From the NCBI RefSeq assembly GCF_023016265.1, contig NZ_CP095412.1, forward strand, positions 2,046,001 to 2,110,000: a stretch of 64,000 bases of DNA, read 5' to 3'. Origin of the DNA: Blastococcus sp. PRF04-17. Its GTDB lineage: Bacteria > Actinomycetota > Actinomycetes > Mycobacteriales > Geodermatophilaceae. The first letter of the stretch is position 1. Each line of letters opens with the position of its first letter. Below the pieces are notes generated by a model. That model was not told the DNA's origin and did not search any database. It was given only the letters and a program-made list of their open reading frames with translations. Made by a program: the position numbers and the translations under genes. Below, piece by piece: positions 2,129 to 40,826 of this stretch.

Positions 2129-3397
2129 CTACGCCGACGGATGGCCGAGAGCCAGGTCGTCCAGCAGCTTGTCGAGGAGCGCCTCCTCGTAGGCCGGCGC
2201 ACCGGTCGTGGTGATGACCTCGGCGAGTGCGGGATCCCAGGGGGTGTCGGCCGCTGCGGCCAGGACACGCCCCGTGTCGTCCGGCGTGGGGTCGGAGGCC
2301 ATGTAGTCGGCCGCGCTCATCCGCCAGGGCACGGCCTGCGGACAGGCCGCCAGTATCGCCCGCACGTGAGCGAGGCCGGCCGCGTCGAAGTCGGCACGCA
2401 CCGCGACGCGCCAACCGGTGGCGGGCAGCGCGGCGATGGTGACGATCTCTCGCGCCGAAGGCGTGCCGGAGGTGCCAAGCAGCCGGACCTGAGCGCCACC
2501 GGCGGCGAGGCCGGCTGCGGCGGCGACGACCGATGGGTTCTCTGTGACGAACACCCAGGCCCCGGGCTGAGGGGGCGCGGGCCAGATGCAGCGGTCGAGT
2601 TCGCGTGGCGGGACGGTGACCACGGCGTCGGCCGGCAGGGTCCATCCGGCCGGATGGATGCCGAGTGCGTGCAGACCGCCGGTGAGGTCGTCGCAGTCGA
2701 CGCCGAGGACATCCCATGCGGCGCGGGCCCGCACCCCGGAGAGGCCTGCGAGTGCGAGCACCAGCCCGGCCAGCGTGCGGCCCTCATCAAGGGCATGCGG
2801 ACGGGTGGGCACCAGGGTGCGCCGGTCGGAGCGCTGCCCGTCGGGGGGCAACGCCGCAAGGACCGCCGTCGCCTGGGCCACCAGGCCGAAGGGGTCGGGC
2901 TGGCCGGCGAGGCGGGCGGCCCAACCGGTCGTGCGCAGGCGCTCCCAGGCGGCAGCCGGGTCGACGCGGTTGCGGACGTGCCCCGGCAGACCGGCCAGGC
3001 GCTGCTCGAGGTTCTCTCGGACGGTGACGAGTAGCTGGTTGCGGGCACGTTTCTCCGTGGCTCTGACCGCCAGCCGGCGGCCGACCGCGTGCGCGGCGAC
3101 CGCGCCCGGAGTCAGCCGGGGTCCACGTACCCGCAGCCGGGTGGTAAGCGCGGCCATGTCGACCGTGCGCCGCTGCCCGGCTCGCAGCCGGGCGCCCCCG
3201 AGCAGGCCTACAGCCGCCGCGCGGGAGTTCGGCGCGAGCGGGGTGGCCACCTGCAGTCGCCCGGTGGCGAGGTCGGCGTCCCCACGTCGGTCGGCGGCCG
3301 CGGCGACCGCCGTCCACAGCCAGTGCAGCTCGTCGATGAGCAGTGGGCCGAGCTCGGCACCGTTGCAGCGGTCGGCGCAGAATCGGCAACCGGTCAC
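2129..3397 (-). CDS. jetD: Wadjet type II protein JetD (TIGR02679-like, Toprim nuclease subunit)
   Basis: A 422-residue protein. GTG at 3397 overlaps the jetC stop (GTGA), which fixes the start. The C-terminal part matches the DUF2399 Toprim-like domain: a glutamate in WVFVTENPS (about E286) and the acidic pair in VRADFDAAG (about D336, D338) form the expected E...DxD metal site. The N-terminal part is the wHTH/arm region of DUF3323 and begins with a Cys-rich stretch GCRFCADRC. In characterised Wadjet systems JetD is the nuclease that cuts plasmid DNA after the SMC-like complex has extruded it. The gene is intact, with no shift visible. Confidence 0.9.
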   Translation of the reverse strand: MTGCRFCADRCNGAELGPLLIDELHWLWTAVAAAADRRGDADLATGRLQVATPLAPNSRAAAVGLLGGARLRAGQRRTVDMAALTTRLRVRGPRLTPGAVAAHAVGRRLAVRATEKRARNQLLVTVRENLEQRLAGLPGHVRNRVDPAAAWERLRTTGWAARLAGQPDPFGLVAQATAVLAALPPDGQRSDRRTLVPTRPHALDEGRTLAGLVLALAGLSGVRARAAWDVLGVDCDDLTGGLHALGIHPAGWTLPADAVVTVPPRELDRCIWPAPPQPGAWVFVTENPSVVAAAAGLAAGGAQVRLLGTSGTPSAREIVTIAALPATGWRVAVRADFDAAGLAHVRAILAACPQAVPWRMSAADYMASDPTPDDTGRVLAAAADTPWDPALAEVITTTGAPAYEEALLDKLLDDLALGHPSA

Positions 3398-6300
3398 GAC
3401 ACCGGCTCGCCGGTCGGGTCGCCGTCGAGATCGAACAAGCCGCGGATCCACATCGGGTCCGCGACGACGGTGCCGTCCGAGCCAGCCTCCAGGTCCCAGG
3501 CGTCGATGCCGTCCCACGCGCCGGGCGCGCCGTCCCACAGGTAGCTCGTGCACAGCAGGTCCAGGTCCAGCTCGGCGATGAACCGGGCCAGCCCCTCACG
3601 CCCCCGCTCGTCGACCTCGACGGGAACCTCGTCGAGCGCGGCCAGCCGGAGCCCAGTCGGTCCGAGGCTGTCGTAGAACGCGGCGACGGCGGCGAGCATG
3701 GGGGCGAGGACGACAAGTCGCCGCTCCCCTCCGGACAGCGGGGTCCTCGCCGACCAGCGGCCGGTCGTGCCGTCCGGGCGGGTGACCACGTAGTGCACGT
3801 CAACCCAGCTGCGGATGTCGACGGCGACGGCGACCTGTTCGGCCATCGTCTCCGCGTCCGCGGCGGCGATCAGTTGCTGAAGGGCGTGGCCCACTTCCGC
3901 CTTCTGCTCCGGAGAGCGGTCGGCGTCGCTGACCCGGCAGGCCAACTCGTACACCGTCCGCTCGGCCGGGGAGAGATCGTCGCGCAGTCGGACCTCAACC
4001 CGCACGCCGACGCCGGAGGAGGCGGCGGCCGAGCGCATCTTGCGGTTGACGTCGCCGACCCAGTCGTGCAGACCTGTCCAAGCGTGCCCGATCGCGCCGG
4101 GCAGCCGACCGATGACGAACTTCTGCAGCGTGACCTCGTCGGCGGCGGCCAGCGCCTTTTGGGCTTCGACCTTTAGCTGCTCGGCGCGGCGCGCAGCCGT
4201 GGGCGGCGTGTACGGGACGTCGTCGTGGGTGAGGAGGTATGTCTCCAGCGTGTCGCCCTGGCCGTAGCTTTCGGCCGGGTCGAGCGTCCAGGTGCCGGCC
4301 AGCCGGGCCCGGGCCTCGTCGTAGCGCTCTCGGAGCAGCTTGCGGCCGGAGCGGCGCCGGCCGGCCAGCCTGTCGGCAACCGTGGCCAGCAGCTCGTCGT
4401 CACTGGCCAGGCCTGCGGGCACGGAGTCGTCGCCGAACAGGATGTCCCCGACGCCAGGCGCGGCGAGCAGCGCCAACATCTCCCCCGGCGGGCATCGGCG
4501 GTCGGCTGGGCCGCACGCTCGGCCTTCTGGGCGGCCGCGAGCCGCTCCTCGAGCTTGGCGACCGACGCGCTGGCCACCTCGGCTCGCTCGCGCGCCGGAC
4601 CCGTCCGAGCCTCCAGCCTGTCGCGCTCGGCGCAGGCGGCGGTGTGCTCGGCAACGGCCTCCCTGGCAGCTCGACCGGCGTTCGCGCGGAGACGTGAGAT
4701 CTTCTCCTCGGTGCCCGCCGCCACGTCGTGCGCGCGTTGGGCGGCCGCGCGCACCCTCGGCAGCGTCCCGTTCAGGGCGTCCAGCCGTGCCACATCAGCG
4801 AGCAACCGGACGAGTCGTGCGCGCAGCCGGCCACCGAGGCCGTCCGCCGCCTTCTGCAACTCTTCGGCCGCCCGGGCGGCGTCAGCCTGGATGCTGGCGA
4901 GCGCGTCGAGGTTGGCCGGCAGCGACCGGACTCGAGTGCGCTCAGCCCAATCGTGGCGCTGGGCGTTGGCCTGCTCCTCCGCACGCAGCGCCGCCGCGCG
5001 GGTGGCGACGGCGAGGTCGCGCTGCTCCGCAGCGGCGCGTGCGGCCTCGGCCCGTCCGGCCTCCGCTGCGCGAGCAGCCGGGTCGGCGGGAAAGAGCGAG
5101 CGTGTTCGGCCACGTCACGGCGTCGGCGCTGCAGCCGCTCGGCGGCAGTACGCAGGCCTTCAGCGGCAGCCTCCAAGGCGGCGGCCTCCTCCTCCAGCGC
5201 CTGGGCACGGGCGAGCGCGGCGGCACGTCGCTGTGCCGCCCCCACGAACTGGGCCGAGGGCAGTTGCTCTGGGTCGTCAACGCCGGGGGCGCGCCCGAAC
5301 AGTGGCCCAGCACGGAACGTGCCGTCTGTGCCGATCACCAACCCCGTCGGACCGTCCGTGGCGGCAGCGCTGGGCGCCAGCGCCACACGCTCGAGGACGC
5401 CTACCGCGACGTCGGCAAGTGGATGGGTGTCGTCGACGGCGAGCACTGCGGCGAGGTTGGCGAGAACCGTCGCCCCGGCGGGCCGAACCTGCCAGGCGCT
5501 CGTTGTCGCACCGTCTGCGGTCAGCGTCGCGGCCAGCAGCCCAGAGGCGGCCAGTGCCGTCTCGATCAGGTCTCTGGCCCGCTGATCGGTGAACTCCGGC
5601 GCCCAGTCCACCGCGGCAGCCAGCGCCGTGGCGTCGTCGGCACCGGTCCACCAGGCCGGGCGGGGCAGCGGAAGCAGCCGCCCGGCACGCAACGCCTCGG
5701 CGTCGGTGCGGCGCTGCCTGGCGTCGGCGGTGAGCCCCTCGGCCTCGGTGCGCAGGTCCTGCTGCCGGCGGCGGAGATCGGCGTCGGTGCGGGCGGCCCG
5801 AGCCCCCACCTGCTCGGTCCAGCCGGTGACCTCGTCGAGCACGCGGCCGGGTTCTGCGGCGCGCAGGTCGGCGACGTCGTCCGCGGATGGCAGCACGAAC
5901 TCCTCCTCGCCCTCAGCGCTCGTGACGTGCGCGGTATCCCTGTCGACCAAGGCGACGCTGGCAGTGCCGATGTCGGGCTCGTAGAGGCCGTCAGGGGCGA
6001 CCGGCCAGACCGCGACTCGGTCGAGCAGCTCCTCGGCGGCGCCACGGGCGGCGGCGTGTGCCTTCGTGGACGCCTGAGAGGCGGCGTCGGCCTTGTCCTC
6101 GGCGGTCATGGCGGCGGCGTGCGCCGTTGCGGCCGCGTCCTCGGCCGGCCGTACGGTGCGCGCGAAATCCGTGATCGCTAGCTGGGCGTCGGCGGCGCGG
6201 GCCTCGTGGGTGCGACCGAGCTCGCTCCACCGCTGGGCACGGGCGGTCAGCCGGTCGGGGTCCGCGTCGACCGTGAGCAACGGCCCGGGGTCGGCGCCGG

Positions 6301-7624
6301 CCGTGCCGACCGTGAGCACAGCTCGCGGCCTGGTCGACCAAGTCGCCAGCGGGTCATCGTCGGCCGCTGCGGAGTCCGCCGCAACTGCTGTCCGGACCCG
6401 CTCGTCGAGCTCGCCGGCCAGCTCCTCGGCATGGCCTGTCAGCGAGACCGTGGTGTCGCGGACCGTAGCGACGGCACCGGTCAGCTGTTCCAACGTGGTC
6501 CTGGCCTGGGCCTGCTCGGCGGTCAGCTGACCCTCCAGCGCCGTCAGCGCGCCGGCGGCCTTGTAGGCATCGCCCTGCTCGATCGCCTCGATCTGGGCGC
6601 GCAGCGTCCCGAGCCGGGTGCCGAGATCAGCCTCGGCCGTCCGCGCCCTCTCGGCCTCGGCGGTCGCGGCCTGCATCTCGCCGGTCAACCGGCGGGTCTG
6701 CGCCGCCGCGCGGCCCACCTCGGCCGCCGACTCGCTCGCGACCTCGTGCGCGGCGGCGACGACCTCGGTGACGTGTCCGGCCCAGGTGGCGGCGAACTCG
6801 GCGAGGACGTCGGCGGCGGCGCTGTCGCGGGCAAAAGCCTCGCGGGTGGCGGCGGACTCGGCGAGCGCGTCGGCGGTCGCGGTGACGACGTCGTCAGCGA
6901 CACCGGGCAGCGCCTCCCGCAGCGCCTCGGCGGCCTGGGGTGCGGTCAGGTCGCCGAGCAGTGACGGGTTGCGCACCACCCGGATTCGGTCGGCGAGATC
7001 GCGAAGCTGCCCCGGCTCGGCACCCCACACGCGCGCAGCCAGGTTCGTGACGTAGTCCTCCTCGGCATCCTCGCCGTCGAACACCTGGCCGCCGGCGGCG
7101 GTGACGTGGTCAGTGAACTGTTCGATGGGCAGCGCCGCCCGATCGGGTCCATGCAACCGCAGGTCGGTAAGAGGCTCGCCAGGCACAGTGAAAGGCACGA
7201 CCTTCACCGCCGGAGAGGCCCCCTCCGAGTACTGGAGTCGCACCCCGAAGCTCTGCCGCCCCTCGCTGCCCGGGCCGGCAAAGGTCAGCCAGAGGTAGCC
7301 GTAGCGGCGGCGGCTGGTAGCGCCCTCCTTCATCAACGAGCGCAGGGTGGTGGTGCGGGCCTTGCCGGCATTCAGCCGCTGGGCGTTGAGGTCGAGCAAG
7401 TACGGCCACAGCGCCTCGAGCGCAGTGGTCTTGCCGGTGCCGTTCGGACCGCGCAGCAGCAACCGTCCGGACTCGGCGTTCAGCGGCAGATCGCCGTAGC
7501 GCCACACGTTCGACAGTCCGGCGCCGACCAGCCGCCACCGGCCGCCGAAGCGTTCGGCGTGCCCGACCGGAGGCGCCATCACCTCCTCGTCGGTGAACAG
7601 CGGTGTGGGTTCGGGTGCAGTCAT
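3394..7624 (-). CDS. jetC: Wadjet type II protein JetC (TIGR02680-like SMC ATPase), split by two single-base deletions
   Basis: Start ATG at 7624, five bases after the jetB stop. The N-terminus carries the Walker A GPNGTGKTT (residues 59-67). A long Ala/Glu/Arg coiled coil follows, then the C-terminal head with the signature LSGGERRLVVLAPM and the Walker B-like LRLAALDEVPVEVDERGR. The frame breaks twice: near 5088-5090 (GGG, one base short) and near 4482-4486 (CCCCC, one base short). Restoring one base at each gives a continuous protein of about 1410 residues, close to the family length near 1350. JetC is the loop-extruding motor. Because the same kind of homopolymer indel occurs in many other genes here, sequencing error is likelier than real inactivation. 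Confidence 0.88.
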
Positions 7625-7629
7625 CGTGG

Positions 7630-8925
7630 TCAGTGCTCCGGGGTCTGGGAGATCGGCTCGTCGAACACCAACGTCTGGTTCAGGGGAGCCGCGGGCTGTG
7701 TCCGGCGCGGCGGGGCGGCCAGCGAGGCCCAACGGCCGAGGGCTGGGGAAAACCACCAACTGCGCGCGGTCAGGCCGCCCTCCGCGTCCGGCGTGGGATC
7801 GTCGACACGCAGCAGGCCCAGGCCGGTGAGAAGGTCACGAACCTTGCCGGCCAGTCCGGTGGGGTTGTCCACGTCCTCGCCAGCCCAGCCGCCGCGGCCG
7901 GCACCGAACAGCTGCCCCCATTCGGTCAGCCGGGAGATCACGGTCTCCTCGGAGACGGCTCGCCAGCCGGGGACGGCAGGATCGCGGTCACCGTCGACGG
8001 CGGCGGCGTCGCAAAGCAGCAGGGCGGCGTGCCCGACGGTTCCGGGAGTCGGGAAGGGAAGCGGGCCGAGCTCGCGCGGATAGCGGAACGCGTCCGTGGG
8101 AACCACAAACGCCGCGCCTTCCGTACGGCGCTCCACGTGCAGCCCGAACGCGGCGGCCAACGGGGCGCCGTCGTCCCCACGGACGCGCCGGGACAGCCAA
8201 TCGGCCTCAGCAACATCAAGGTCGGCGGCATACACGACGGTGTCGTCAACCAGTCGCCGTCGCATTCGCCGCGCCGGGTCCGGCTCCCTCTCGACACGGG
8301 CCAGCCACCCAGCCGGGTCATCGGCGGGGTCCCCTTCGGCGAAGTTCGCGATGACGTGCAGCAGCCTGGTGTGGTGCACGCCCAGCAGCACCCGGGCCTG
8401 CTCGTCGGCAACGAATCCGTCGACGTCACCATCCACCTGTTCGATGACACCCCGCTCGTCCAGCATCCGTAGCGCCGCAGCGATCGCCCGGCGTTCGGCG
8501 ATGTCGTGCATGACCGGCAACCCGGCCTCGGCCGCGGCAGCCCGGGCGGCGGTGACCAGGGAGGCGAGTGCGACCCGCGGAGCCATCGCCTCGGCGGCTG
8601 CCACCAGCAGAAAGAACCACGTGCAGGTCGCCGACGGAGGCGCCGTGGCAGCCCATGCTTCGCGGCGGACCGGCGAGGACTTGCGCAGCCGGATGAGGTC
8701 CCGTTCGACGACGAGCACCCAGCCGAGCCGGTTGAGAGCGTCACGGACCGCATCCAGATTCCGGCGGATGGCCGCGATGGCCTCGTCGTCGCGGCCGGGC
8801 AACAGCCAGGGCCTCGCGGCGAGAGCGCGGAGCGCCGCGCTGACCTCCGCATCGACCTCGACCGACCAGGCCTTTCGGCCGCGCACCGCCGACGAGGGCT
8901 GGGGTGCCTCGAAGTCGTCCCTCAT
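7630..8925 (-). CDS. jetB: Wadjet type II protein JetB (DUF2398, kite-like subunit)
   Basis: A 431-residue protein matching the DUF2398/TIGR02678 family in length and position. Its ATG overlaps the jetA stop (8922-8925). It starts MRDDFEAPQPSS; winged-helix segments such as ALRMLDERGVIEQVDGD occur in the middle. In Wadjet, JetB is the KITE-type subunit that binds the kleisin JetA and the JetC heads. It is intact. The spacing to jetC is five bases, so the operon is tightly coupled. Confidence 0.9.
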   Translation of the reverse strand: MRDDFEAPQPSSAVRGRKAWSVEVDAEVSAALRALAARPWLLPGRDDEAIAAIRRNLDAVRDALNRLGWVLVVERDLIRLRKSSPVRREAWAATAPPSATCTWFFLLVAAAEAMAPRVALASLVTAARAAAAEAGLPVMHDIAERRAIAAALRMLDERGVIEQVDGDVDGFVADEQARVLLGVHHTRLLHVIANFAEGDPADDPAGWLARVEREPDPARRMRRRLVDDTVVYAADLDVAEADWLSRRVRGDDGAPLAAAFGLHVERRTEGAAFVVPTDAFRYPRELGPLPFPTPGTVGHAALLLCDAAAVDGDRDPAVPGWRAVSEETVISRLTEWGQLFGAGRGGWAGEDVDNPTGLAGKVRDLLTGLGLLRVDDPTPDAEGGLTARSWWFSPALGRWASLAAPPRRTQPAAPLNQTLVFDEPISQTPEH

Positions 8926-10499
8926 GCCGTGTCCTCCCGCACCAGCCGGATACCCGCACGGGCATCAGGATCGGGGGCTGTCATCTGCGGCGCGGCGACC
9001 CGGGTACCAACGGCGTGGAACACCACCGCGCGGCCGGGCAGCCACACCTTCCACGTAGGGGCGCGCACCAGCCCGACGTGGCCCGGGACGCGGAAAAGGG
9101 TGCAGGCCAACCCGTCACGCTGTGCCGACCGCCGGTCGCGCCGCGGCCCAGCGGCCCGGATACGCGCCGCGGCGAGCAGCGCGGCCAGCGCCACCCGGGC
9201 GGCCCCGTCGGACAACTCGGCGCCGGGCGCGGCCGCGAGCACCTCACGCACCGCGGCCGCGTGCCTAGCCCGGCGGGCCGCGCGACGGGCAGCCACTTCC
9301 GCGCGGGCTGCGGCGTGGTCACGGGCAGCGCCGGCTCGGCCTCGGGCTCCGGTGCGCCCGACGGCGCGCAACAGGTCGGGCACCTCCACCGGAGGGCCGT
9401 CCCACCAGGACGGAGCCCGCATCAGCTCGTCGTCGTCCGCCTCGCCGTACAGCTTCCGCCACGGGTGGTCACCGACCGCCGCAAGGAACACCGCAGGCCC
9501 GAATCGCGGGTCGGCGCAAGCACGGGCCAGCTGAAGCGCCCGAGCACGCCCAGTCGCGGTGGCCGAGGAAGCGTGCAGCCGGCGCAGGTTGGCGTGCATG
9601 CCCGGCAGCGCTCGCACTAGGCGCATTGCGAACCGGGCGGCGCGCCCACTCATCGGGTCACACCAGGCCAGCAGCTGGAACCAGTCACTGCGCCGCCCAC
9701 CGCGGGACGCAGTCAGCGCGCCACGGTCGATCAGCGCGCGGGCGTCGGAGGCAGCGACGGCGGAATCGGCGAGCGCGGCGAACGACGGCTGTAGGGCCAG
9801 CAACGCCCGGTGTGCCCGCGCCGAGCCGGATTCCAGCTCCCCCGCGATCCGGGTGGCGTACTCGACCAGCAGCTGCTTGAGCTCAGCGGTCGCGGCGTCG
9901 TCGAGGTCGAATCGATCGGCGAGGGTGGCAAGGGTGTCCTCGGCGCCAACCAGAGCCATGTCCAGGTCGTCATGGCTGGTGAACAGGCGCCCAATGTGCT
10001 CGGCTGCCTCGGCGGCGTCAGGAACCATGGCGTCCGCAGGCATGGTCAGGGCCAGGTGCTCCAGCGAGGCGACGACCCGGTTGAGGCTGGACAGCGGGAT
10101 TTCGCGCATCGTTGGCGTGGCGGCCAGCACCGTCGTGTAGAAGCGCTGCACCTGCCGGCCGGCCGGAGTCGCCGTCCACCGCCAGTTGCGGGCCATGAGG
10201 TCGGCGTAGCGCAGGATGCGACTCGTGTCGGTGCGCGCCGAGGCGGCGGTCCAGTCCCGCAGTTGGTCCAGCCGTGTCTCGACGGTGTCGCTGTTCAGCG
10301 GCGTGCTGGCCTCCCGCAGTGCGGACGCCACCTCGGCCGGGGTCATGTCGGTGACCGAGGCCTCGAGCACCGCCATGATTGCGATGTAGTCGTCCGCCTC
10401 CGGGGCGACGAGGTAGGCCATCGCCCGACGGGCATCGGTCACGGTGACCCGAAAGCCATGCTCGTTCGTCGCGGCGTCGGGTCCGGACGGCCCCGTCAT
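8922..10499 (-). CDS. jetA: Wadjet type II protein JetA (DUF2397, kleisin-like subunit)
   Basis: A 525-residue protein. The start ATG at 10499 is preceded by a strong GAGGAGGG ribosome binding site; in-frame starts further upstream lack one. It begins MTGPSGPDAATNEHGF, and the DUF2397/TIGR02677 core follows, including AMAYLVAPEADDYIAIMAVLEA near residue 30. JetA is the kleisin-like subunit that joins JetB to the JetC heads. It is the first gene of jetABCD, with about 440 bp of non-coding DNA upstream that should carry the promoter. Confidence 0.9.
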   Translation of the reverse strand: MTGPSGPDAATNEHGFRVTVTDARRAMAYLVAPEADDYIAIMAVLEASVTDMTPAEVASALREASTPLNSDTVETRLDQLRDWTAASARTDTSRILRYADLMARNWRWTATPAGRQVQRFYTTVLAATPTMREIPLSSLNRVVASLEHLALTMPADAMVPDAAEAAEHIGRLFTSHDDLDMALVGAEDTLATLADRFDLDDAATAELKQLLVEYATRIAGELESGSARAHRALLALQPSFAALADSAVAASDARALIDRGALTASRGGRRSDWFQLLAWCDPMSGRAARFAMRLVRALPGMHANLRRLHASSATATGRARALQLARACADPRFGPAVFLAAVGDHPWRKLYGEADDDELMRAPSWWDGPPVEVPDLLRAVGRTGARGRAGAARDHAAARAEVAARRAARRARHAAAVREVLAAAPGAELSDGAARVALAALLAAARIRAAGPRRDRRSAQRDGLACTLFRVPGHVGLVRAPTWKVWLPGRAVVFHAVGTRVAAPQMTAPDPDARAGIRLVREDTA

Positions 10500-10937
10500 T
10501 CGCCCTCCTCTCGCCCGTGTGGGCATGGTGTTGGCCCCAGCCCCCAGACGACAGGGCGGTGAATGTGGCGGAGCGCACCCTACGGCCGCCCTACGACAGA
10601 ACCGCACCTCCACCGGCGGCCGCTCAGAGGAAGACATCACTCTGAGTGAATGCTCTGCGCCGCGGGGCCTACTGTGCTCACGCCTCGTCGTGAGAACGGT
10701 AGGTCCCCCGACCCGGGAAGCCCGTCTCACACGGACGACTGGATGCGCAGGGGCGGTGGAGTGTGCGCCGCAGCCCGACCGCTTTGCGATAGTTGCCCCT
10801 TGCCTGTCGGTGGACATCACCTAGGACTCGGGTGGGACAGCCGGCGGGCGACGCGTCCTCCCACCGTTGACCAGCCATCGAGACCCTCGCGGGCGTGCGA
10901 CTGCCGACCTGCAGGAGGGTTCCGGTGTCCTGGCACG
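10500..10937. other. Non-coding stretch upstream of the Wadjet operon
   Basis: No credible gene is seen; the open frames here have implausible compositions. It must contain the promoter of jetABCD. I could not assign -35 and -10 boxes with any certainty. Confidence 0.5.
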
Positions 10938-10980
10938 ACGAAGGCCCGGTCACCTGCGAATCAGGTGACCGGGCCTTCGT
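10938..10980. terminator. Strong hairpin terminator
   Basis: A perfect 19-bp inverted repeat (10938-10956 and 10962-10980) with a 5-nt loop sits just behind the minus-strand gene that ends at 11003. It insulates that gene from the Wadjet promoter region. Confidence 0.8.
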
Positions 10981-11002
10981 GCGTGGGCCGGGCTAGGTGG
11001 GG

Positions 11003-11434
11003 CTAGGCGGCGTCGCGGGCCTTGGTGAACAGTGCGGCGATCTCCGGCTTCATCCAGTACTTCCCGGAGTCACTGTCCCACTCGGTCGGCAGGGTGCGGT
11101 TGACGGCCGCGCAGTGCCGGCCGGGCCAGGCCAACACGCCCGCGACGCCGTACTTGCCGTTCGGGATGTCGTGCGCCTCTGCGAGCTGCTCACCGGTGTA
11201 CTTCTCGCCCGGGTTGTCGATCATCGAGCCGAACATGTCCTGGGCGCGGTAGCTGAACTTGGTCCAAACGACCTTGGCGAGGGCGAGGTCCTCGTCGGTG
11301 TCCTGCCAGCGCGAGACCGGCACGGGCTCCTGCTCGGGCTGCACGTCGGTGCCGGCGAGCCAGCCGCCGTACATCGCGTAGAAGTCGGCCAGGCGGTCGG
11401 TGGGGACCTTCACGGTCACGTCCTGCATGTCCAT
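11003..11434 (-). CDS. Uncharacterised actinobacterial protein
   Basis: A 143-residue protein from ATG at 11434, which has an AGGAGC box seven bases upstream; a GTG one codon earlier is less well placed. It starts MDMQDVTVKVPTDRLADFYAMYGGWL; the central segment KYTGEQLAEAHDIPNGKYGVAGVLAWPG looks like a compact winged-helix fold. From memory it resembles small streptomycete proteins of an uncharacterised DUF family (possibly DUF6416), which I cannot confirm. It is monocistronic, with its own terminator. Confidence 0.65.
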   Translation of the reverse strand: MDMQDVTVKVPTDRLADFYAMYGGWLAGTDVQPEQEPVPVSRWQDTDEDLALAKVVWTKFSYRAQDMFGSMIDNPGEKYTGEQLAEAHDIPNGKYGVAGVLAWPGRHCAAVNRTLPTEWDSDSGKYWMKPEIAALFTKARDAA

Positions 11435-13668: not shown

Positions 13669-14628
13669 GTGCGCGCGAACGACATCACACTCAGGCAGCT
13701 CGAGCGATTCCTGGCTGTACTAGAGGCTGGCAGCGTTCGCAAGGGTGCAGTGGAGCGCAACTTCGAACCCCAGACGTTTTCGTCCGACCTGGAGAAGCTG
13801 GCGACGGCTCTCGGGGTCAAGCTGTTCGACTCGGTCCGCGGTAAGGGCTCGTTTCCTACGGTTTCGGCGCGACTGATCGAAGGCCGGGTTCGCGAGCTGC
13901 TGGCCGCCGCTGAACGGCTGGAGTCGTACGCGAAAAGCCTCAGCGAGGGATCTACGGGCGTCATCTCCATCGCCGCTTACCCGGTGCACCTCGAGCGCTT
14001 CCTCGCCAGGCTCATCGCACAGTTCGCTTCCTCGTTCCCCGACGTGAGCCTCGACCTGAGCAAGATCCGCGACGACCGAAGGCGCGGTCTTGGACGCTCC
14101 TTGTTCGAGGAACTGCGGGACGGGGACGTCGACTTCGCGATGGGGCCTCCGCACACCGACATCCCCGGCATCGAGGGGATCAAGGCCTATGACGCGCGCA
14201 TCGTGGTGCTCTTCCCCGAGCAAGATCCGCGTGCCAGCGCGGACCAGGTGCCGATCGAGGAGCTTCGGAATCTGCAGCTCCTGACAGCCCCTCGCACCTA
14301 CTTCTCGCGGGACAAGGTGCAGGAACTCGCCGCCGAAGCTGGATTTGACCTCAAGGTCGTCCACGAGGGCAGCAGCCCCCCGGCCCTGCGAGCCTTGGGG
14401 ATGGCCGGCTGGGGCGTGCCGGTGCTCCCTGATGACTACGCCGTCGTTCGGTCGCGGCACCATCCAGTACTCATCGACGCGAAGGGTCATGAGGTCCTTA
14501 CCCCGGTGTGGCTTCACTGGCGGACCGAGCAGAGCAATCCCGCTCCCGTCCCCTCCTTCATCAAACTGGCAAAGGAGTTGGCCGCAGCGGAACGGGCGAG
14601 CACAGGAGCCGCCGCGGTCAGTGCCTAG
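13669..14628 (+). CDS. LysR-type transcriptional regulator
   Basis: About 319 residues from GTG at 13669. The N-terminal wHTH begins ITLRQLERFLAVLEAGSVRKGAVERNF and contains the LysR-typical LEKLATALGVKLFDSVRGKG. The C-terminal effector-binding domain follows (GVISIAAYPVHLERFLARLI onward). Divergent orientation with a 26-bp gap to pgl suggests it controls pgl, its own gene, or both, as is common for LysR pairs. The HTH is slightly unusual: the A/S-rich first helix is partly replaced by charged residues. Confidence 0.8.
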   Translation: MRANDITLRQLERFLAVLEAGSVRKGAVERNFEPQTFSSDLEKLATALGVKLFDSVRGKGSFPTVSARLIEGRVRELLAAAERLESYAKSLSEGSTGVISIAAYPVHLERFLARLIAQFASSFPDVSLDLSKIRDDRRRGLGRSLFEELRDGDVDFAMGPPHTDIPGIEGIKAYDARIVVLFPEQDPRASADQVPIEELRNLQLLTAPRTYFSRDKVQELAAEAGFDLKVVHEGSSPPALRALGMAGWGVPVLPDDYAVVRSRHHPVLIDAKGHEVLTPVWLHWRTEQSNPAPVPSFIKLAKELAAAERASTGAAAVSA

Positions 14629-14988
14629 AGGCTAGGGCGAGCGGGGGCCTCCCGGCTAGCAGCACTTTCCAGCCACTCAATCAACCGTGGCCTGGCAACG
14701 ACGCGCTCCAATGACTGACAAAGTGCGCGCTCTTCGGCCTGCCCGACGCCTGCAAAGTCCGTCAAATGCAAGGTGCTTAGTGACGGTCGACTCCGCCCTG
14801 GTCGTGCGCGATCGTGGAGATCGGGCGCCGCCGGCGCTCCGACCGATCGCTCAGACGACCCGACCCCGGAGGTGCCACCACCGGCCAACTCACCTCGAAC
14901 GCGGAGCGGGGAGCCCCGACCTGGCAGTCGAAGCTCCCCTGGTGCTCCGCCTCGCCCGCCTTCCACAGCACACGAATGGAGCTCACTC
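14629..14988. other. Non-coding stretch before the desaturase
   Basis: About 360 bp without a supported gene. The open frames on both strands have no recognisable content. It presumably carries the desaturase promoter. Confidence 0.5.
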
Positions 14989-16164
14989 ATGCTCGCACAA
15001 AGCACGGTCGCGGACGCGTCTGCAGTGACAGGCAACGCTCGCGTGTCGATCCGGGAGGAGTACGCGAAGCGCCTGCCGGCCTTCGCACAGCAGTTCGTGA
15101 CCCGCTTCTCCGGCAAGGCGGCCGCCGGTCAGGCCGCGCCGAAGCGGGTCGTACCCGGCGGCGTCAACGTCGCTCTGACGTTGGCGCAGTGGCCCGCCGC
15201 GATCGCGGTCGGTGCGGCCACGCTCATGACGCACCCAGTCCTGGGCATCGTGTCGCTGCCGCCGCTCTGGCTGGCAAGCGTGAACGCGCTGCGCAAGGAC
15301 CAGGCGGTCCTCGGTCACCACGCTGTGCACCGCGAGATCGCCGAGACGCAGCAGAAGAACTACGCGATCCAGGTGGTCCTCAGCTCCGCCTCCTTCGTGC
15401 ACAACTGGGAGGACTACTTCGAGGACCACGTCCGGGGTCACCACAGCCGCAAGATCTTCACGACCGCGGCGGACCCCGACGCCGCGTTCCTGATGCAGAT
15501 GGGCTTCCGGCCGGGGATGTCCCCCCGAGCGCTGTGGCGTCAGCTGCGCCGCACGGTGGCCTCCCCGCGCTTCCACATGATCTTCCTGCAGGCGCGCATT
15601 CGGACGAACTTCGTGACAGCGCCGTGGCATCGCCGGCTCGCGGCTGCGGCGTGGCTGGCAGGACTGGCCGGGGCCGCGGTGCTCATGCCGGCGTGGGTGT
15701 TCGTTGCCACGGTGGTGATCCCGTTGCTGCCCCTCTACCACGTCTCGGGGCTGCTCCAGTTCCTCTCGGAGCACGCCTGGCTCACCACCGAGAACGCGGC
15801 CGGTAGCAAGGAGGAGTACGCCGCGCGGACCTGGGGCCGCTTCTGCCTCGAGCCGCTTCCGGCGAGCGACCTCGCCGGCTGGGCCAAGGTCCGTGGCTGG
15901 GCCCGGTGGGCCGCTCGAATGGCGCTGGTCCAGCTGCCGACGCGCTACGGCGTCGTCATGGGCGACCTGCCCGTGCACGACCTGCACCACCTGTTCCCGG
16001 CCGAGCACGACTGGACGAGGTCGCTGTGGGTCCGTCAGCAGCGCATCGACCGAGGCGAGAGCCAGGGCATGGAGAACCGCGAGTTCTACAAGTTGGCCGA
16101 CGCGATCGACGCCGTCTTCGACGGCATGAGCCGGGCGTGTCAGGAACCCTGTGTAAGTGCGTGA
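14989..16164 (+). CDS. Membrane fatty-acid desaturase-type protein, C-terminus replaced by IS sequence
   Basis: A 391-residue di-iron membrane desaturase/hydroxylase. Histidine boxes are HHAVH (about 110-114), HVRGHH (147-152) and HDLHH near residue 333, with hydrophobic segments between. The ATG at 14989 has a GGAG box eight bases upstream. The last four codons (CVSA) and the stop come from the left end of the IS256-type element starting at 16149. Joining the flanks without the element keeps the frame open for about 22 more codons (QEPADTPHEPRE and onward to a TGA near 17637), so the original protein was probably longer. All catalytic boxes are retained, so activity may persist. Confidence 0.75.
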   Translation: MLAQSTVADASAVTGNARVSIREEYAKRLPAFAQQFVTRFSGKAAAGQAAPKRVVPGGVNVALTLAQWPAAIAVGAATLMTHPVLGIVSLPPLWLASVNALRKDQAVLGHHAVHREIAETQQKNYAIQVVLSSASFVHNWEDYFEDHVRGHHSRKIFTTAADPDAAFLMQMGFRPGMSPRALWRQLRRTVASPRFHMIFLQARIRTNFVTAPWHRRLAAAAWLAGLAGAAVLMPAWVFVATVVIPLLPLYHVSGLLQFLSEHAWLTTENAAGSKEEYAARTWGRFCLEPLPASDLAGWAKVRGWARWAARMALVQLPTRYGVVMGDLPVHDLHHLFPAEHDWTRSLWVRQQRIDRGESQGMENREFYKLADAIDAVFDGMSRACQEPCVSA

Positions 16165-17575
16165 CTCCGATGCTGAGCCAACGCGGCTTGGAGAGGAGAC
16201 GCAGTGACAGACGCAGTGCAGATGCCGGTGGTCGACGATGGTGACGTGCCGGCGGAGAAGAGGCCTCGGGGACGGATCGGCCGTCCTCGTCGTGACGCTG
16301 GTGAGCCACGGCTGGTCTCGCAGGACTTCGCCCGCCGGCTGGTCGCTCAGGCCCGCGATGAGGGTCTGGACATCGCCGGGGACTCCGGCCTGCTGCAGCA
16401 GATGATGAAGTCGGTGCTCGAGGCCGCGCTGGCCGAGGAGCTCACCGACCATCTGGGCTACGAGCCCGGCGATCCGGCCGGCCGGGGGTCGGGGAACTCG
16501 CGCAACGGCAGCACGCCCAAGACGGTGCTGACCGAGTCCGGCCCGGTGGCGCTGGAGACGCCGCGGGATCGGGCGGGCACGTTCGAGCCGCAGATCGTGC
16601 GCAAGGGCCAGCGCCGGCTGGACGGCATCGACAAGATCGTGCTCGGGCTCTACGCGAAGGGCATGAGCACCCGGGACATCACAGCCCACCTGGCCGAGAT
16701 CTACGACGTGGACGTCAGCCCGGATTTGATCTCCAAGATCACCGACGCGGTGCACGCCGAGGTCGCCGAGTGGCAGTCCCGCCCGCTCAACCCGGTCTAT
16801 CCGGTGATCTTCCTCGACGCGCTGGTCTGCAAGGTCCGCGACGGCGGCACCGTGCGCAACAAGGCCGCCCACCTGGCCGTCGGCGTCGACGTCGAGGGCC
16901 GCAAGGAGGTGCTGGGCATCTGGGTGGAGACCACCGAGGGCGCGAAGTTCTGGCTGCGGGTCATGAACGAGCTCAAGGCCCGCGGCGTCTCCGACGTGCT
17001 CATCGCCGTCTGCGACGGGCTGACCGGGCTCCCGGAGGCGATCAACGCCGTCTGGCCCGCCACGCGGGTGCAGACCTGCATCGTGCACCTGATCCGGGCC
17101 TCCCTGCGCTGGGTCAGCTACAACGACCGCAAGAAGGTCGCCGGCCTGCTGCGCCCGATCTACAACGCGCCCACCGAGGCCGCCGCCCGCGCCGAGCTGG
17201 ACGCCCTGGCCGACTCCGACTTCGGCCGGAACAACCCCGGGATCATCCGCCGCTGGCGCGACTCCTGGGAGCTGGTCATCCCGTTCTTCGACTTCCCCCC
17301 GGAGGTGCGCAAGGTCATCTACACCACCAACATGATCGAGAGCATCAACAGCCAGCTCCGCCGGGCCACCCGCAACCGTGGCCACTTCCCCTCCGACGAG
17401 GCCCTGATCAAGGTGCTCTACCTGGGCTGCAAGGAGATGGGCCGCACCAGCACCCGATCCACCGCCGGACGCGGCAGCGGGGTCCCTTGGAAGCAGGCAC
17501 TCAACCAGTTCGACATCATGTTCCCGGGCCGGCTGGACCTGGCCTGACCCATCAACCGGTCACGCACTTACACAG
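16149..17575 (+). mobile_element. IS256-family insertion sequence
   Basis: Bounded by 17-bp perfect terminal inverted repeats (16149-16165 and 17559-17575) around one transposase gene. Flanking direct repeats of the usual 8-9 bp are not seen; only ACC is repeated on both sides (16146-16148, 17576-17578). It lies in the 3' end of the desaturase gene. Confidence 0.9.
16204..17547 (+). CDS. IS256-family transposase
   Basis: A complete 447-residue transposase. The DDE residues can be placed in FLDALVCKVRDGG (D205), IAVCDGLTGLPEAI (D271) and YTTNMIESINSQLRR (E379); the last block is the IS256 (Mutator-like) signature. The frame is intact, so the element may still be active. Confidence 0.93.
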   Translation: MTDAVQMPVVDDGDVPAEKRPRGRIGRPRRDAGEPRLVSQDFARRLVAQARDEGLDIAGDSGLLQQMMKSVLEAALAEELTDHLGYEPGDPAGRGSGNSRNGSTPKTVLTESGPVALETPRDRAGTFEPQIVRKGQRRLDGIDKIVLGLYAKGMSTRDITAHLAEIYDVDVSPDLISKITDAVHAEVAEWQSRPLNPVYPVIFLDALVCKVRDGGTVRNKAAHLAVGVDVEGRKEVLGIWVETTEGAKFWLRVMNELKARGVSDVLIAVCDGLTGLPEAINAVWPATRVQTCIVHLIRASLRWVSYNDRKKVAGLLRPIYNAPTEAAARAELDALADSDFGRNNPGIIRRWRDSWELVIPFFDFPPEVRKVIYTTNMIESINSQLRRATRNRGHFPSDEALIKVLYLGCKEMGRTSTRSTAGRGSGVPWKQALNQFDIMFPGRLDLA

Positions 17576-17692
17576 ACCGGCTGACACCCCCCATGAGCCG
17601 CGAGAACGCGAACACCGCCAGGAACTGACCACTAGCTGACCGGGGTGGCGCTCGGTCTCCGCCGGGCGCCACCCCCGACCAGGAGGAACACG

Positions 17693-18115
17693 GTGTACAC
17701 CGACAACGAGAAGAAGTTCACCGCGGTGCTGAACAGGCGCCACCCGCTCCCGCTGCTCATGAACGCCCTCGGCCACCTGGCGAGCGGCCTCACCGCCACG
17801 CTCAACGGCGAAGGGGAGTTCCTGGACTACCCCTGCCCCGCCGGCGGCTTCACCGCGAAGGTCAGCCGGTTCCCGTTCATCGTGCTCTCGGCGGACAACG
17901 GCAACCAGCTCCGTCGACTCCGCGACGGCGCCGCCGAAGCCAGCCTCCCCCACAACGTGTTCGTCACCTCGATGCTCGGCCCCTCCGCCGTCGCCCAGGT
18001 CGAGGCAACGCGCACGGCAACAACCGACGATCTCGACTACGTCGCCGTCGCCGTGTTCGGGAGCGCCGAGTTGCTGACCCCACTGACCCGCAAGTTCTCT
18101 CTGTTCCGAGCCTGA
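17693..18115 (+). CDS. DUF2000 family protein
   Basis: A 140-residue protein. The start GTG at 17693 is preceded by AGGAGG. The sequence (RHPLPLLMNALGHLASGLTA, then FPFIVLSADNGNQLRRLRD) matches the DUF2000 family, whose fold resembles peptidyl-tRNA hydrolase; its biochemical role is unknown. It is followed 13 bases later by another gene on the same strand. Confidence 0.75.
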   Translation: MYTDNEKKFTAVLNRRHPLPLLMNALGHLASGLTATLNGEGEFLDYPCPAGGFTAKVSRFPFIVLSADNGNQLRRLRDGAAEASLPHNVFVTSMLGPSAVAQVEATRTATTDDLDYVAVAVFGSAELLTPLTRKFSLFRA

Positions 18116-18128
18116 GAGAGGTGCCCCC

Positions 18129-18602
18129 ATGCGCGTGAACCAGGAACCGAACGGTCCTGGCCAGGAGGTCGCAGCCCCCGTCCCGTGGGAGGCTGCGGTC
18201 GCTGTGGCGGATGCCTGGCTGCCGCCGAACGCCGGCTCGTTGGAGAGTCGCCGGCTCCAGGCAGCCGCCCGATACCTCATCCAAGCCGTGACCTGGGAGA
18301 TCTGGAACGGAGAGCTCAGGCCACCGACCCACGACGAAGTCCGGCGCATTCTCGCCGAGGAACTGCGACCGCCCGGCAACATGCTTCGGAAGATGACGGC
18401 CTCGTTGAACCCCTTCGTCGCCGACGCCGCCCGCGCCGCGCTCAACGCCCGATGCTGGGCGGCAGTCCACGGCAGCAAGAACCTCGTCGTCGCACAAGCG
18501 GTGATGAGCCTGGATGCAGGCTCCGGCACAACGGCAGGCCCATCCCAGGAGCCCTTCCGGGACGCCGCGCGACCGCCGGACTCGGTCCGCTCCGAGACGT
18601 AG
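18129..18602 (+). CDS. Hypothetical protein
   Basis: A 157-residue protein from ATG at 18129 with a GAGAGG box upstream, 13 bases after the DUF2000 gene, so probably in one operon with it. It is mostly helical (VPWEAAVAVADAWLPP, RRLQAAARYLIQAVTWEIW); the last 30 residues look disordered. No family recognised. Confidence 0.6.
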   Translation: MRVNQEPNGPGQEVAAPVPWEAAVAVADAWLPPNAGSLESRRLQAAARYLIQAVTWEIWNGELRPPTHDEVRRILAEELRPPGNMLRKMTASLNPFVADAARAALNARCWAAVHGSKNLVVAQAVMSLDAGSGTTAGPSQEPFRDAARPPDSVRSET

Positions 18603-19061
18603 AGCCGGCTCCATCGAACGGCATCGAGAACGCGGTAAGCCTTCAGGCGTAGGGCCGACACCGTATGAGGTCCGCCCGTCCGAACCGGACGGGCGGACCT
18701 CGCGTTCTCGGTCCTCGACCATCTCGGCACCGCTACGCGCGGTGGTACTCCAAGTGCGTCCAGACCTTCAAATGCGCCACCCAGCTCAGCCGTTTCGGCG
18801 TTCTCGGCGCCGTCGCAGACGTGCTCGGCGAGCGACGGGCAGGCGTCAAGCACGTCCCGCACCCCGGCGCGCGCGACGACAAGGCAGGCCTGGCCGGGGC
18901 CCGCGTCGACGTGGAAGCTCGACGCAGGCATTGGGCCATGGTGGAGCAAGAGGCGATGAGGCCACTGCTCGTCTCTCGCGAGCAGAGGCCGCAGGCCCAC
19001 CAACACACCCGCGGACCAATCGGCGTCATCACGGTGTCGAAGTCGGCCAATGGCGGAACGG
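18603..19061. other. Intergenic stretch between convergent genes
   Basis: About 460 bp. It holds the hairpin at 18667-18701. On the minus strand, roughly 18720-19030, one frame reads protein-like (SSFHVDAGPGQACLVVARAG) but has no convincing start and no stop for more than a kilobase, so I do not call a gene. A decayed gene is possible. Confidence 0.4.
18667..18701. terminator. Hairpin terminator
   Basis: A perfect 15-bp inverted repeat (18667-18681, 18687-18701) with a 5-nt loop lies between the plus-strand gene ending at 18602 and the minus-strand gene ending at 19062. Confidence 0.7.
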
Positions 19062-20552
19062 TCAGTGCCAGTTCGGGTCGAGCGTGAGCGTGGCGAACGG
19101 GTCACGCATCCATGCGTCGAACTCGGCCATGGTGCAGAACACCGGTTGGCCGGCAAACTGCCGGGTCACCGCAGCCAGCTGGTGCAGAGCATCGTCGGTG
19201 CCGGCACCCGCCAGCGACTCGAGCGCGCCCGCCACTTGCGGCAGAACGGTCGTCGCCACGAACGCATTGCGCTCTGCGCCGAGAGCCTCGACCGCATCGC
19301 CCAGAGCGGACGCGGTGAACACCGCCGCGGCGGTCTCGGCCTCCAGAACAGCGATGCGCTCCTCGGGCAGCTGATCCTCCCGCACCGCCGCCAGCGCGAA
19401 CTGCGTCCCCTGGACGATGACCGTGGCCGAGAACTGGCCGACCAGGCCGCCGACGAGCGCTCCGACCACCGGCACCGGGATCACCGTCTGCCCCGCGGAG
19501 CCACAGGCCCAGACCAGGCCGACGGTCAGCGTCGACTCGCAGCTGCGCGCGGCGAACTGGCCGGCGTCGATGTCACCGCGGGCGAAAGCGACGCCAGCCT
19601 CGGCGACGCCGTACACCGCACGGGCCAAAGCTAGCGGCAGCGTGCCCCCGCCCAGCGCGTCGGGCAGCAGATCGGCCTGGGCCGCGACCCGCACCGCCTC
19701 ACCGAGGGCGGCGATCGTTCCGCCGCGGACCGCCCCACGAGCCGTCGCTGCCGCGGCGGTGGCGGCCGCGGTCGAAGCCGAGGTCTCCCCCGCCCGGACC
19801 TTCGCAGCCGAACGGGCCGCCGACAGCACCCCGGCCACTGCGGCACCACCAGCCGCGCCGACCCCCGCCGCAGTCAGCACCTGGTGCCCGACCGCCCCGG
19901 CGACCTGGGCATTAGCCCAGCCGATCGGACGCTCGGCGGCCCGGTGCACCGCGTCGCTCGTCAGCGGCTGGCTGCGGACGTCCGCGGCATGCAGCCGATC
20001 GGTCAGATGAGCGCGGGCGTCCTGGTAGTCGGCATAGCGCAACCCCTCCCGGTTCAGCGTCAGCCGCCGGTCCAGCAGGCCCGAAACCGCCTGCAACTTG
20101 TCCCCGGCAACTAACCGTTGCATGCCGTCGTAGGAGCTGCGGGCGACCCCGCTCGCCAGCGCCGTCGTCCGATCGACCAGCTTCGCCTGCGCCTCCGCCA
20201 CCAGACGCCCACCGTCGAGCAGCTGAATGTCTGCGGCCGCCGTCTGCGATCCACCGGCCATCCACTCGGTGACCGCGGCTCGGACGCTGGCACCCTGCGC
20301 GATCGCGTCCCGGTTGAACGAGGACGCGTGCATCACCTCGAACAGGTGACCCGCACGGATGGCAAGACCGACGTTGGCGTACCGCGCCGCCAGGTCCACC
20401 ACGATCTCGCGGATACGCAGCGTCTCCACCGTCTCCGCCGCCAAGCGCCGGGTGCCCTCGTCGGCCAGCTCCCACAGCGCCGCATCGGCCCCGCCAGGCA
20501 GCAGTGGTCGGCGCCGGACATCAGCCGCGCACCATGCCGGCGGGACGCTCAC
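19062..20552 (-). CDS. Unknown protein: possible PD-(D/E)xK-like N-terminal part plus glycine-zipper hydrophobic domain
   Basis: A 496-residue protein from GTG at 20552, overlapping the gene before it (GTGA). Residues of about 60-150 contain AGHLFEVMHASSFNRDA, then ADIQLLDGGRLVAEAQAKL, then SYDGMQRLVAGDKL. The order E...D...(E)xQxK resembles restriction-like nuclease cores, but this is a motif reading only. The middle and C-terminal parts are Ala/Gly-rich, with a glycine-zipper segment VIPVPVVGALVGGLVGQF that could span or perturb a membrane. No named family is recognised. It forms an obligate-looking pair with the upstream gene. Confidence 0.6.
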   Translation of the reverse strand: MSVPPAWCAADVRRRPLLPGGADAALWELADEGTRRLAAETVETLRIREIVVDLAARYANVGLAIRAGHLFEVMHASSFNRDAIAQGASVRAAVTEWMAGGSQTAAADIQLLDGGRLVAEAQAKLVDRTTALASGVARSSYDGMQRLVAGDKLQAVSGLLDRRLTLNREGLRYADYQDARAHLTDRLHAADVRSQPLTSDAVHRAAERPIGWANAQVAGAVGHQVLTAAGVGAAGGAAVAGVLSAARSAAKVRAGETSASTAAATAAAATARGAVRGGTIAALGEAVRVAAQADLLPDALGGGTLPLALARAVYGVAEAGVAFARGDIDAGQFAARSCESTLTVGLVWACGSAGQTVIPVPVVGALVGGLVGQFSATVIVQGTQFALAAVREDQLPEERIAVLEAETAAAVFTASALGDAVEALGAERNAFVATTVLPQVAGALESLAGAGTDDALHQLAAVTRQFAGQPVFCTMAEFDAWMRDPFATLTLDPNWH

Positions 20553-23745: not shown

Positions 23746-23782
23746 GCCAACTAGGGGCTGGCTTTTCGCCAGCACCCCGGGG

Positions 23783-24157
23783 TGGAGGTGGCGGGAATCG
23801 AACCCGCGTCCTTCGACGCATCACCAGGGCTTCTCCGAGCGCAGTCTGCCTTGCCTCTGCTCGACCCCGTCGATCACGCAGACAAGTCGACGTGACGGGC
23901 CCAGTCGCTGTGCGGTGTCCCGTGCACGCCCGCGACCGGCACGCACGGTGAGTCATCTAGCTGATGCCAGGATCCGGGCCGATGACGAAACCCGGGCTGA
24001 CAGACCCGAACTAGCTGCTATCAGGCAGCGAGTTCGAAGTCGCGCTGCGTATTAGCGGCGCTTGTGTTGTTTGCAACGCGTGGTTAACGAGCTCATCGTT
24101 GCCTTCCTCGGCTCGCTTCCCCTGGTCACCCGACCGAAGTCGAGACCATTCACCCCC
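23783..24157 (-). ncRNA. ssrA: tmRNA
   Basis: About 375 nt. The 5' end reads GGGGGTGAATGGTCTCGAC and the 3' end has the tRNA-like T arm (GGGTTCGATTCCC) and acceptor strand CACCTCC plus discriminator A. The seven acceptor positions pair (one G-U). CCA is not encoded and must be added. The tag reading frame (24021-24059) encodes ANTQRDFELAA followed by TGA. tmRNA rescues stalled ribosomes together with SmpB (gene at 33001). The 3' end is a well-known integration site for genomic islands. Confidence 0.95.
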
Positions 24158-38989: not shown

Positions 38990-39225
38990 ATGAGCGAAGA
39001 GACGACGATCCGCGTCGACAGCGAGCAGTACGTGATCCGGCCCGAGGGCGACGGTCTCCAGGTGGGCAGGCGCGTCGGTGACGACGTGCAGTGGCTGGAC
39101 ACGGTGCAGCGCGACCTGCTGCCGGACCGGGCACGCGAGGCCCTCGAGCGCGGCGACACCTCCGACGAGTCGCTGGTCACCGCCCTGCGGGGGTCGTGCA
39201 GGCCGAGGTGGAACGGGGCGGCTGA
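38990..39225 (+). CDS. Small conserved hypothetical protein, one base missing near its end
   Basis: A protein of about 78 residues from ATG at 38990 (MSEETTIRVDSEQYVIRPEG). As read, the frame runs on for hundreds of codons. Adding one G to the GGGGG run at 39189-39193 gives the natural end ALRGVVQAEVERGG and TGA at 39223-39225. The same correction also restores the end of the convergent gene, which makes the missing base very likely. Function unknown. Confidence 0.7.
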
Positions 39226-39986
39226 GCGGCAGCCACTGCAGGGCGTCCCGGACGTCGGCGGGCGCTCGGGCGAACTCGGCCTCGATCGCCGCGCGGCCCT
39301 CGCGGAAGTGCGACCACCCCTCGTAGTGCACCGGGATCGCGGTCCTCGGCCGCAGGAGCCGGCAGACCTCGACGGCCTGGCGTGCGGTCATCGAGAACCG
39401 GAGCGGCCCGGTGATCGGGAACCGGACGCCGCCGAGGTGCAGCACCGCGGTGTCGACCCGGAGGCGCTCGCCCACCTGCCGGACGCCGGAGTGGAGGACC
39501 GTGTCGCCGGAGATCCACAGGACGCCGCCGTCCTGACCCGGCCAGCGGAGCGCGAACCCGATGACCGCGCCGGCGACGGGGCGGCTCAGCGGCGGTCCGT
39601 GCCGGGCCGGCGTCGCGGTGATCCCGATGGTCGGTCGCCCCTCGCCGGTCAGCTCCGTCGTTCCCCAGGGCCGCAGTGCCCGCGCCCGCCCACCCAGCCG
39701 GGCCGCGCCCGGCACGGTCGTCACGACGACGCCGGCCGCCGGCAGCAGCGCCCGGCCGGCGTCGTCGAGGTTGTCGGCGTGGTGGTCGTGGGTCAGCAGG
39801 ACCGCATCGACAGGGAGGACGTCGGCCGGGCTCAGGGCCGGGCCGGTGACCTTGCGGGACGACGTCCCCCAGCCGAAGGCGTACGCCGCCCGGCGGGTCG
39901 AAGGTCGGATCGAGCAGCAGCCGCCACCCGACCGCCTCGACGAGCAGCGTCGGACCGCCGATGTGGGTCAGCCGCACCCCGTCCAC
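39177..39986 (-). CDS. MBL-fold metallohydrolase (UlaG/RomA-like), two indels
   Basis: About 270 residues. N-terminus GVRLTHIGGPTLLVEAVGWRLLLDPTFDPPG; metal motif LLTHDHHADNLDD; later SGDTVLHSG and IPVHYEGWSHF. The frame changes near 39885-39897 (one extra base or two missing), after which YAFGWGTSSRKVTGP follows. The true stop (TGA at 39177-39179) is reached only if one base is restored at 39189-39193. Family members hydrolyse lactones or phosphodiesters; the substrate is unknown. Its 3' end overlaps that of the gene at 38990 by about 50 bp. Confidence 0.75.
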   Translation of the reverse strand: MDGVRLTHIGGPTLLVEAVGWRLLLDPTFDPPGGVRLRLGDVVPQGHRPGPEPGRRPPCRCGPADPRPPRRQPRRRRPGAAAGGRRRRDDRAGRGPAGWAGAGTAALGNDGADRRGATDHRDHRDAGPARTAAEPPRRRRGHRVRAPLAGSGRRRPVDLRRHGPPLRRPAGGRAPPGRHRGAAPRRRPVPDHRAAPVLDDRTPGRRGLPAPAAEDRDPGALRGVVALPRGPRGDRGRVRPSARRRPGRPAVAAAQPPRSTSACTTPAGR

Positions 39987-39987
39987 G

Positions 39988-40826
39988 TCACTGCGCCCCG
40001 GCGACCTCGGGGCGCGGCGTCGGCGCGTGCCGCAGCGCCCACTCCAGCACGTGATCGGCGATCTGCTGCCAGCCCTCCTGCGCCGGCAGCAGGTGCGAGT
40101 ACCCCTCCAGCACCTCGACCTCGGTGACCGTGTCGCCTTTGTAGTGCTTGGCGTTCGACCGTTGGATGCTCGGCGGCATGATGTGGTCCTCGCTGCCCGA
40201 CACGAACAGCAGCGGAGGACGGCTCGGGTTCTTGTAGTCGACGTGCGTGTCCTGCGGGCCCGGCATGAAGTTCGCCAGCACCGAGTTCCACAGGATCCGG
40301 CCCGAGGCGGGCACGTGGTAGCGCTCGTACAGCCGCCGCGATTCCTCCTCGCTGAACGTGTTGGTGAAGGCGTAGTGCCACTGCTCGGGCGTCAGCCCGA
40401 CGGCGCGGTGGCGGTTCGCCGGGTTCTTGAACGCGACGAACGTCGAGCGCAGCTGCGACAGCGGGAGCACGCGCACGCCTTCGGTGGGCGCCGAGTTGAG
40501 CACCACGCCCACCGCGCCGTAGCCCCGGTCGAGCAGCAGCTGCACGAACGTCCCGCCGGCCGAGTGGCCGATCAGGATCGGCGGCTCGTCCAGCGCCTCG
40601 ACCACCGAGGTGAGGTGGTCCATCACCTGCGGCAGGGTGAGGTCGGCGACCGGCGTGGGATCGGCGTTGAGCGCCTCCACCTCGACCTCGAAGCCCGGAT
40701 AGGTCGGCGCGAGCACGCGGAATCCCTTCTGCTCGTAGTGCTCGACCGAGTGCTCCCAGCTCCGGGGGTCACCCAGAAGCCGTGGACGAGGACGATCGTG
40801 CGGGGGGCGGTGAACTGCGAGCTCAT
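39988..40826 (-). CDS. Alpha/beta hydrolase, one base missing near the N-terminus
   Basis: Starts at ATG 40826 (MSSQFTAPRTIVLVHGFWVTP). One C is missing at 40764-40768; restoring it gives TPRSWEHSVEHYEQKGFRVLAP and a protein of 279 residues. The nucleophile elbow is ILIGHSAGGTF; the acid is likely in FVSGSEDHIMPP and the His in EGYSHLLPAQEGW. Substrate unknown. It is divergent from the AraC regulator, which may control it; the MBL gene starts next to its stop. Confidence 0.82.

Follow-up and report, generated by a model that had tools for sequence, protein, structure and literature searches.

A jetABCD operon predicted from sequence to be a complete type II Wadjet system, with jetC frame changes that are very probably sequencing or assembly errors

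We identified a jetABCD operon which, judged by its sequence, is a complete type II Wadjet system. It lies on the minus strand at positions 2129–10499 of the window, the 64-kb stretch of DNA analyzed here (G000:C1:2046001-2110000; [G + C] content 67–75%), and the source genome consists of one contig of 4,585,415 bases. The [G + C] content and the four relatives identified by name (one Micromonospora, two Paractinoplanes and one Actinomadura) indicate an actinobacterial source. The four genes are adjacent on one strand in the order A-B-C-D (Table 1). In the given sequence, the jetC gene runs through three frames. We consider it very probable that these frame changes are single-base deletions arising from sequencing or assembly and not mutations of the organism, and that the system is intact and active.

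Table 1. Genes and gene pieces of the jetABCD operon (window coordinates).
Feature	Position	Strand	Evidence
jetA (DUF2397, kleisin-like subunit)	8922..10499	-	PADLOC JetA2 E 3.2e-214; PF09660 E 3e-69; TIGR02677 E 5.2e-24, below cut-off
jetB (DUF2398, KITE-like subunit; 4-base overlap with jetA)	7630..8925	-	PADLOC JetB2 E 3e-173; PF09661 E 6.5e-67
jetC N-terminal piece, 848 residues: Walker A head and first coiled-coil arm	5089..7633	-	PADLOC JetC2 E 3.4e-256, model 14-833 of 1404; TIGR02680 E 5.6e-51, below cut-off
jetC middle coiled-coil piece, 201 residues, different frame	4485..5087	-	matches JetC in 3/6 relatives (L059, L003, L060)
jetC C-terminal piece, 361 residues and stop, third frame: signature and Walker B head	3394..4479	-	PADLOC JetC2 E 7.4e-163, model 1039-1398 of 1404; PF13558 E 5.6e-14
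jetD (DUF3323 and DUF2399 Toprim nuclease; N-terminal CxxCxxxC; 4-base overlap with jetC stop)	2129..3397	-	PADLOC JetD2 E 2.9e-53; PF09664, PF11796 (DUF2399 E 4.4e-35; DUF3323 E 4.1e-17)

The PADLOC type II models match JetA, JetB, JetC and JetD and the gene order agrees, which upholds the original prediction of a complete type II jetABCD operon; the coordinates of the four minus-strand genes and their close junctions also hold, the overlaps being 4 bases. Each of the Pfam matches (DUF2397, DUF2398, SbcC_Walker_B, DUF2399 and DUF3323) exceeds the gathering score, and the N-terminal piece of jetC has no Pfam match. The profile check with TIGR02677-02680 that had been proposed was borne out in part: all four models match, but their scores are under the NCBI curated cut-offs, with TIGR02680 scored piece by piece. 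For those models, therefore, the operon is a divergent branch. The catalytic motifs listed in the original prediction are present as well. We read GPNGTGKT in the N-terminal piece of JetC and LSGGE and LAALDE in the C-terminal piece, which we take to be the Walker A, signature and Walker B motifs, respectively. In JetD, the residues E286, D336 and D338 (with the GTG start as residue 1) are invariant in all seven aligned sequences, our own among them.

Type II Wadjet systems (TIGR02677-02680), such as nvJET of Neobacillus vireti and EptABCD of Mycobacterium smegmatis, which is of type II, have in common with this operon the gene order, the four domain families, the SMC head motifs and the Toprim acidic residues. 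The operon differs from them in its NCBIfam scores below cut-off, in the N-terminal CxxCxxxC motif of its JetD and in a jetC gene spread over three frames. An unbroken jetC frame is a requirement for function, not for kinship with type II Wadjet. By analogy with the Wadjet systems that have been studied, the JetABC SMC motor would extrude small circular DNA, and JetD would cut this DNA on completion of extrusion. Plasmids would thereby be restricted, as membership of the family suggests, and a functional anti-plasmid system is likely present in the strain. One report describes JetABC dimers that extrude plasmid DNA, JetD cutting at completed extrusion, and a type II complex of N. vireti that cuts naked circles (PMC12647877). 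For the JetABCD-homologous EptABCD of M. smegmatis, another report describes a null mutant with better plasmid uptake by electroporation (PMC12287153).

In the PDB, the only sequence match of the C-terminal JetC piece is chain A of 9qe0, which is named JetC, and the match is weak (E 0.35); we infer that 9qe0 and 9qe1 represent the N. vireti complex. A phmmer search of the PDB with JetD and JetA gave no match at E 1. The structure predicted for JetD has a moderate quality (mean pLDDT 80.9, pTM 0.59). Its best Foldseek matches are JetD (7til; probability 0.95, E 3.4e-3) and a nuclease of C. glutamicum (8b7f; 0.97, 3.9e-3), with TM-scores below 0.3, and these matches of a predicted fold are only supportive.

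A JetD-like match was found in 61 of 298 searched genomes of the order, our own included. A strong class is limited to four of the 298 (our own, G000, together with G009, G058 and G095), with at least 473 bits against at most 135.4 for the others. The branch to which the operon belongs is also seen in Micromonospora antibiotica, Paractinoplanes deccanensis, Paractinoplanes lichenicola, Actinomadura rupiterrae, G009, G058 and G095. Identity to the branch members is 49–52% for JetD (six aligned) and 60–67% for the C-terminal piece of JetC (six), and the N-terminal motif of JetD is common to all. This CxxCxxxC motif (window 3365–3388) is found in 7/7 aligned sequences and additionally in G095, hence in all eight branch members examined. 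A simple scan of 26 other JetD loci, covering the first 60 residues of the match and the open sequence preceding it, found CxxC in none; this absence is tentative, as some matches start deep in the protein and N-termini may be missed. We put forward, as a doubtful possibility, that these operons form a distinct actinobacterial type II Wadjet branch whose JetD has an additional metal-binding knuckle of three cysteines (CxxCxxxC) at its N-terminus. Metal binding by the motif is a guess; the motif may serve to link JetD with the motor or with DNA.

The two breaks in jetC (approximately 3394–7633) that had been reported are both present in the given sequence, as frame changes near 5085–5095 and 4480–4490. 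Each amounts to a net shift of minus one or, equivalently, plus two. Outside these two positions the pieces remain open, and together they total 848 + 201 + 361 = 1410 residues. In the six branch members compared, the N-terminal and C-terminal pieces share one frame (6/6), unlike in our own genome; G095 was seen for JetD only. The middle piece, where it is matched (three of the six relatives), is always in the frame of the other two. A single open JetC frame was read out in two relatives, G009 (1385 aa) and G058 (1410 aa). With G058 as outside reference, the identities of our own sequence and of G009, respectively, are 47.2 and 47.8 for the N-terminal piece of JetC, 32.3 and 36.3 for the middle piece and 62.5 and 64.8 for the C-terminal piece, compared to 62.9 and 67.3 for JetA, 57.0 and 62.8 for JetB and 50.9 and 52.6 for JetD. 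By this comparison, jetC is decaying no faster than its unbroken neighbours.

We counted frame breaks with a codon-based detector of frame switches, for which the 64-kb window served as the training set. The first sample of our own genome consisted of 20 stretches of 20 kb, 18 of them distributed over the contig and two directly adjoining the window end to end; the controls were two genomes only, G012 (same genus) and G017 (same family), with 10 stretches each. At a threshold of at least 40 open-frame bases on both sides of the switch, a cut picked after seeing the list, the detector finds 41 breaks in our own genome (352 kb coding), 35 of which are of the single-base-deletion type. The controls have five breaks in 358 kb of coding sequence (four in 173 kb for G012, one in 185 kb for G017), two of them of the deletion type, giving a ratio of 8.3 (binomial p 1.6e-8). 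Other thresholds gave 49 against 15 (25 bases) and 32 against 4 (60 bases). A second sample of our own genome, 16 stretches mostly picked around genes located earlier and thus not random, has 33 breaks in 287 kb, 31 of the single-base-deletion type. For the sampled stretches, the rate is approximately 1.2 breaks per 10 kb of coding sequence (about once per 8–9 kb), some 8 times the control rate. The detector is coarse: at 40 bases it flags just one of the two jetC breaks in the window, and some of its hits fall in low-complexity alanine-rich stretches. At the measured rate, the probability of at least two breaks is 0.09 in a gene of the length of jetC and 0.26 across the operon. The pair of breaks in jetC is thus a little unusual, and these values are unsurprising since the finding was selected partly for its breaks. 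The completeness estimate of our own one-contig genome is 95.89, against 99–100 for G002, G010 and G012, the three assemblies of at most 20 contigs from the same genus. A literature search on assembly indels found no paper.

Several other genes, conserved ones such as nusA among them, are broken in this genome. Matches to nusA, which is essential in well-studied bacteria, were found at one locus of the genome only, with model positions 4–58 and 96–169 in one open reading frame and 159–339 in another. Among the 16 relatives searched, nusA lies in one frame and over the cut-off in 13; the other three gave no match (G001 and G003, 80 and 84% complete) or a weak partial match (G041, 86%). The ispG gene is split in our own genome and whole in 20/20 relatives, allantoinase is spread over three frames, and a met_pdase_I (methionyl aminopeptidase) gene over two. 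The genome also contains a second intact met_pdase_I gene, another intact uppS and HMG-CoA reductase. The last of these points to a possible second isoprenoid route, so that loss of ispG need not be lethal, and with the intact second copies of the aminopeptidase and of uppS the loss of the broken copies need not be lethal either. As proof of sequence error, the genes ispG, met_pdase_I and uppS are therefore weakened, and several of the broken genes besides jetC could be real losses. A further point against the artefact reading is that rpoC, murG and ispH are unbroken in our own genome.

Apparent frame changes are also seen elsewhere in the window, near 39.9 kb in a gene for a beta-lactamase-fold hydrolase (39224–39990, minus strand) and near 47.9 kb in a T2SSF/TadC-type gene (47524–48453, minus strand). 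The downstream pieces of both match Pfam and the upstream pieces have no Pfam match; we read the latter as belonging to the same genes. A transposase-like pair of open reading frames in two frames is located at 42050–42960 on the plus strand. Frameshifts between transposase open reading frames are typical of some IS families, and the pair could represent such a frameshift or another assembly break.

The excess of deletion-type breaks, about eightfold over the controls, and the split of nusA at its single locus make it very likely that the breaks in jetC are an artefact of the assembly, which we infer strongly, short of proof. The original prediction had left undecided whether the breaks are real; its alternative of a defence that is switched off finds no support, and the deletion-type breaks in both samples, with the split nusA, rule against jetC as a true pseudogene as the main reading. 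It is improbable, in our judgment, that the breaks are real and recent and that the strain has lost its Wadjet system, perhaps after selection for keeping a plasmid. Such a loss would fit the presence of both breaks in the sequence as given, an OLD-like gene of the same region that is also in separate pieces, and the general occurrence of broken defence genes. Against it, like breaks occur at approximately 1.2 per 10 kb of coding sequence in both samples of the contig and the only nusA found is also split, while the jetC pieces are open apart from the two frame changes and conserved as much as their neighbours.

Two frame changes within an otherwise conserved gene might also be expected if jetC were an on/off switch operated by reversible slippage or by programmed frameshifting. 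We give this explanation very little credence, as none of the six relatives shows a frame change between the N-terminal and C-terminal pieces and the gene is a single open reading frame in G009 and G058; moreover, by extrapolation from both samples, such a switch would have to operate in some hundreds of other, unrelated genes. A broken gene in this contig is weak evidence for gene loss, because breaks, mostly of the single-base-deletion type, occur about once per 8–9 kb of coding sequence in the sampled stretches.

Past jetD, at 1488–2128 on the minus strand, one or two small genes occupy two frames and have sequence endings that look alike. The second part gave no PADLOC match. A fifth operon gene in this interval was considered and rejected, as tblastn found no match at E 1e-4 in any of the six related loci. 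A tmRNA gene with the tag AANTQRDFELAA is located at 23781–24157 of the window (minus strand). We rejected the idea that a mobile element bearing the operon had used this gene for attachment, as 104 kb of our own contig (2006001–2110000) contain no other exact match to its 3' end, down to a length of 16 bases.

In a plasmid collection, 19 records match the C-terminal piece of JetC, two of them, both from Streptomyces, over at least 80%. On these two plasmids, NZ_CP108691.1 and NZ_CP102510.1 (66 and 389 kb), the match covers 91–100% with 58–62% identity. Judging from these matches, an anti-plasmid system is possibly riding on the two plasmids.

Further genes that resemble defence genes are located in the stretch 2006001–2026000 of our own contig. 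Matches to SngC, SngB and SngA (PADLOC; Shango-like) are found on the minus strand at 14034–19985 of that stretch, approximately 20–26 kb outside the low end of the window, and two separate pieces at 9682–11243, also on the minus strand, match different parts of the OLD nuclease model. The OLD-like gene may thus contain a break of the kind seen in jetC. The Shango-like and OLD-like genes lie approximately 22–32 kb from jetABCD, and their proximity suggests a defence-rich region.
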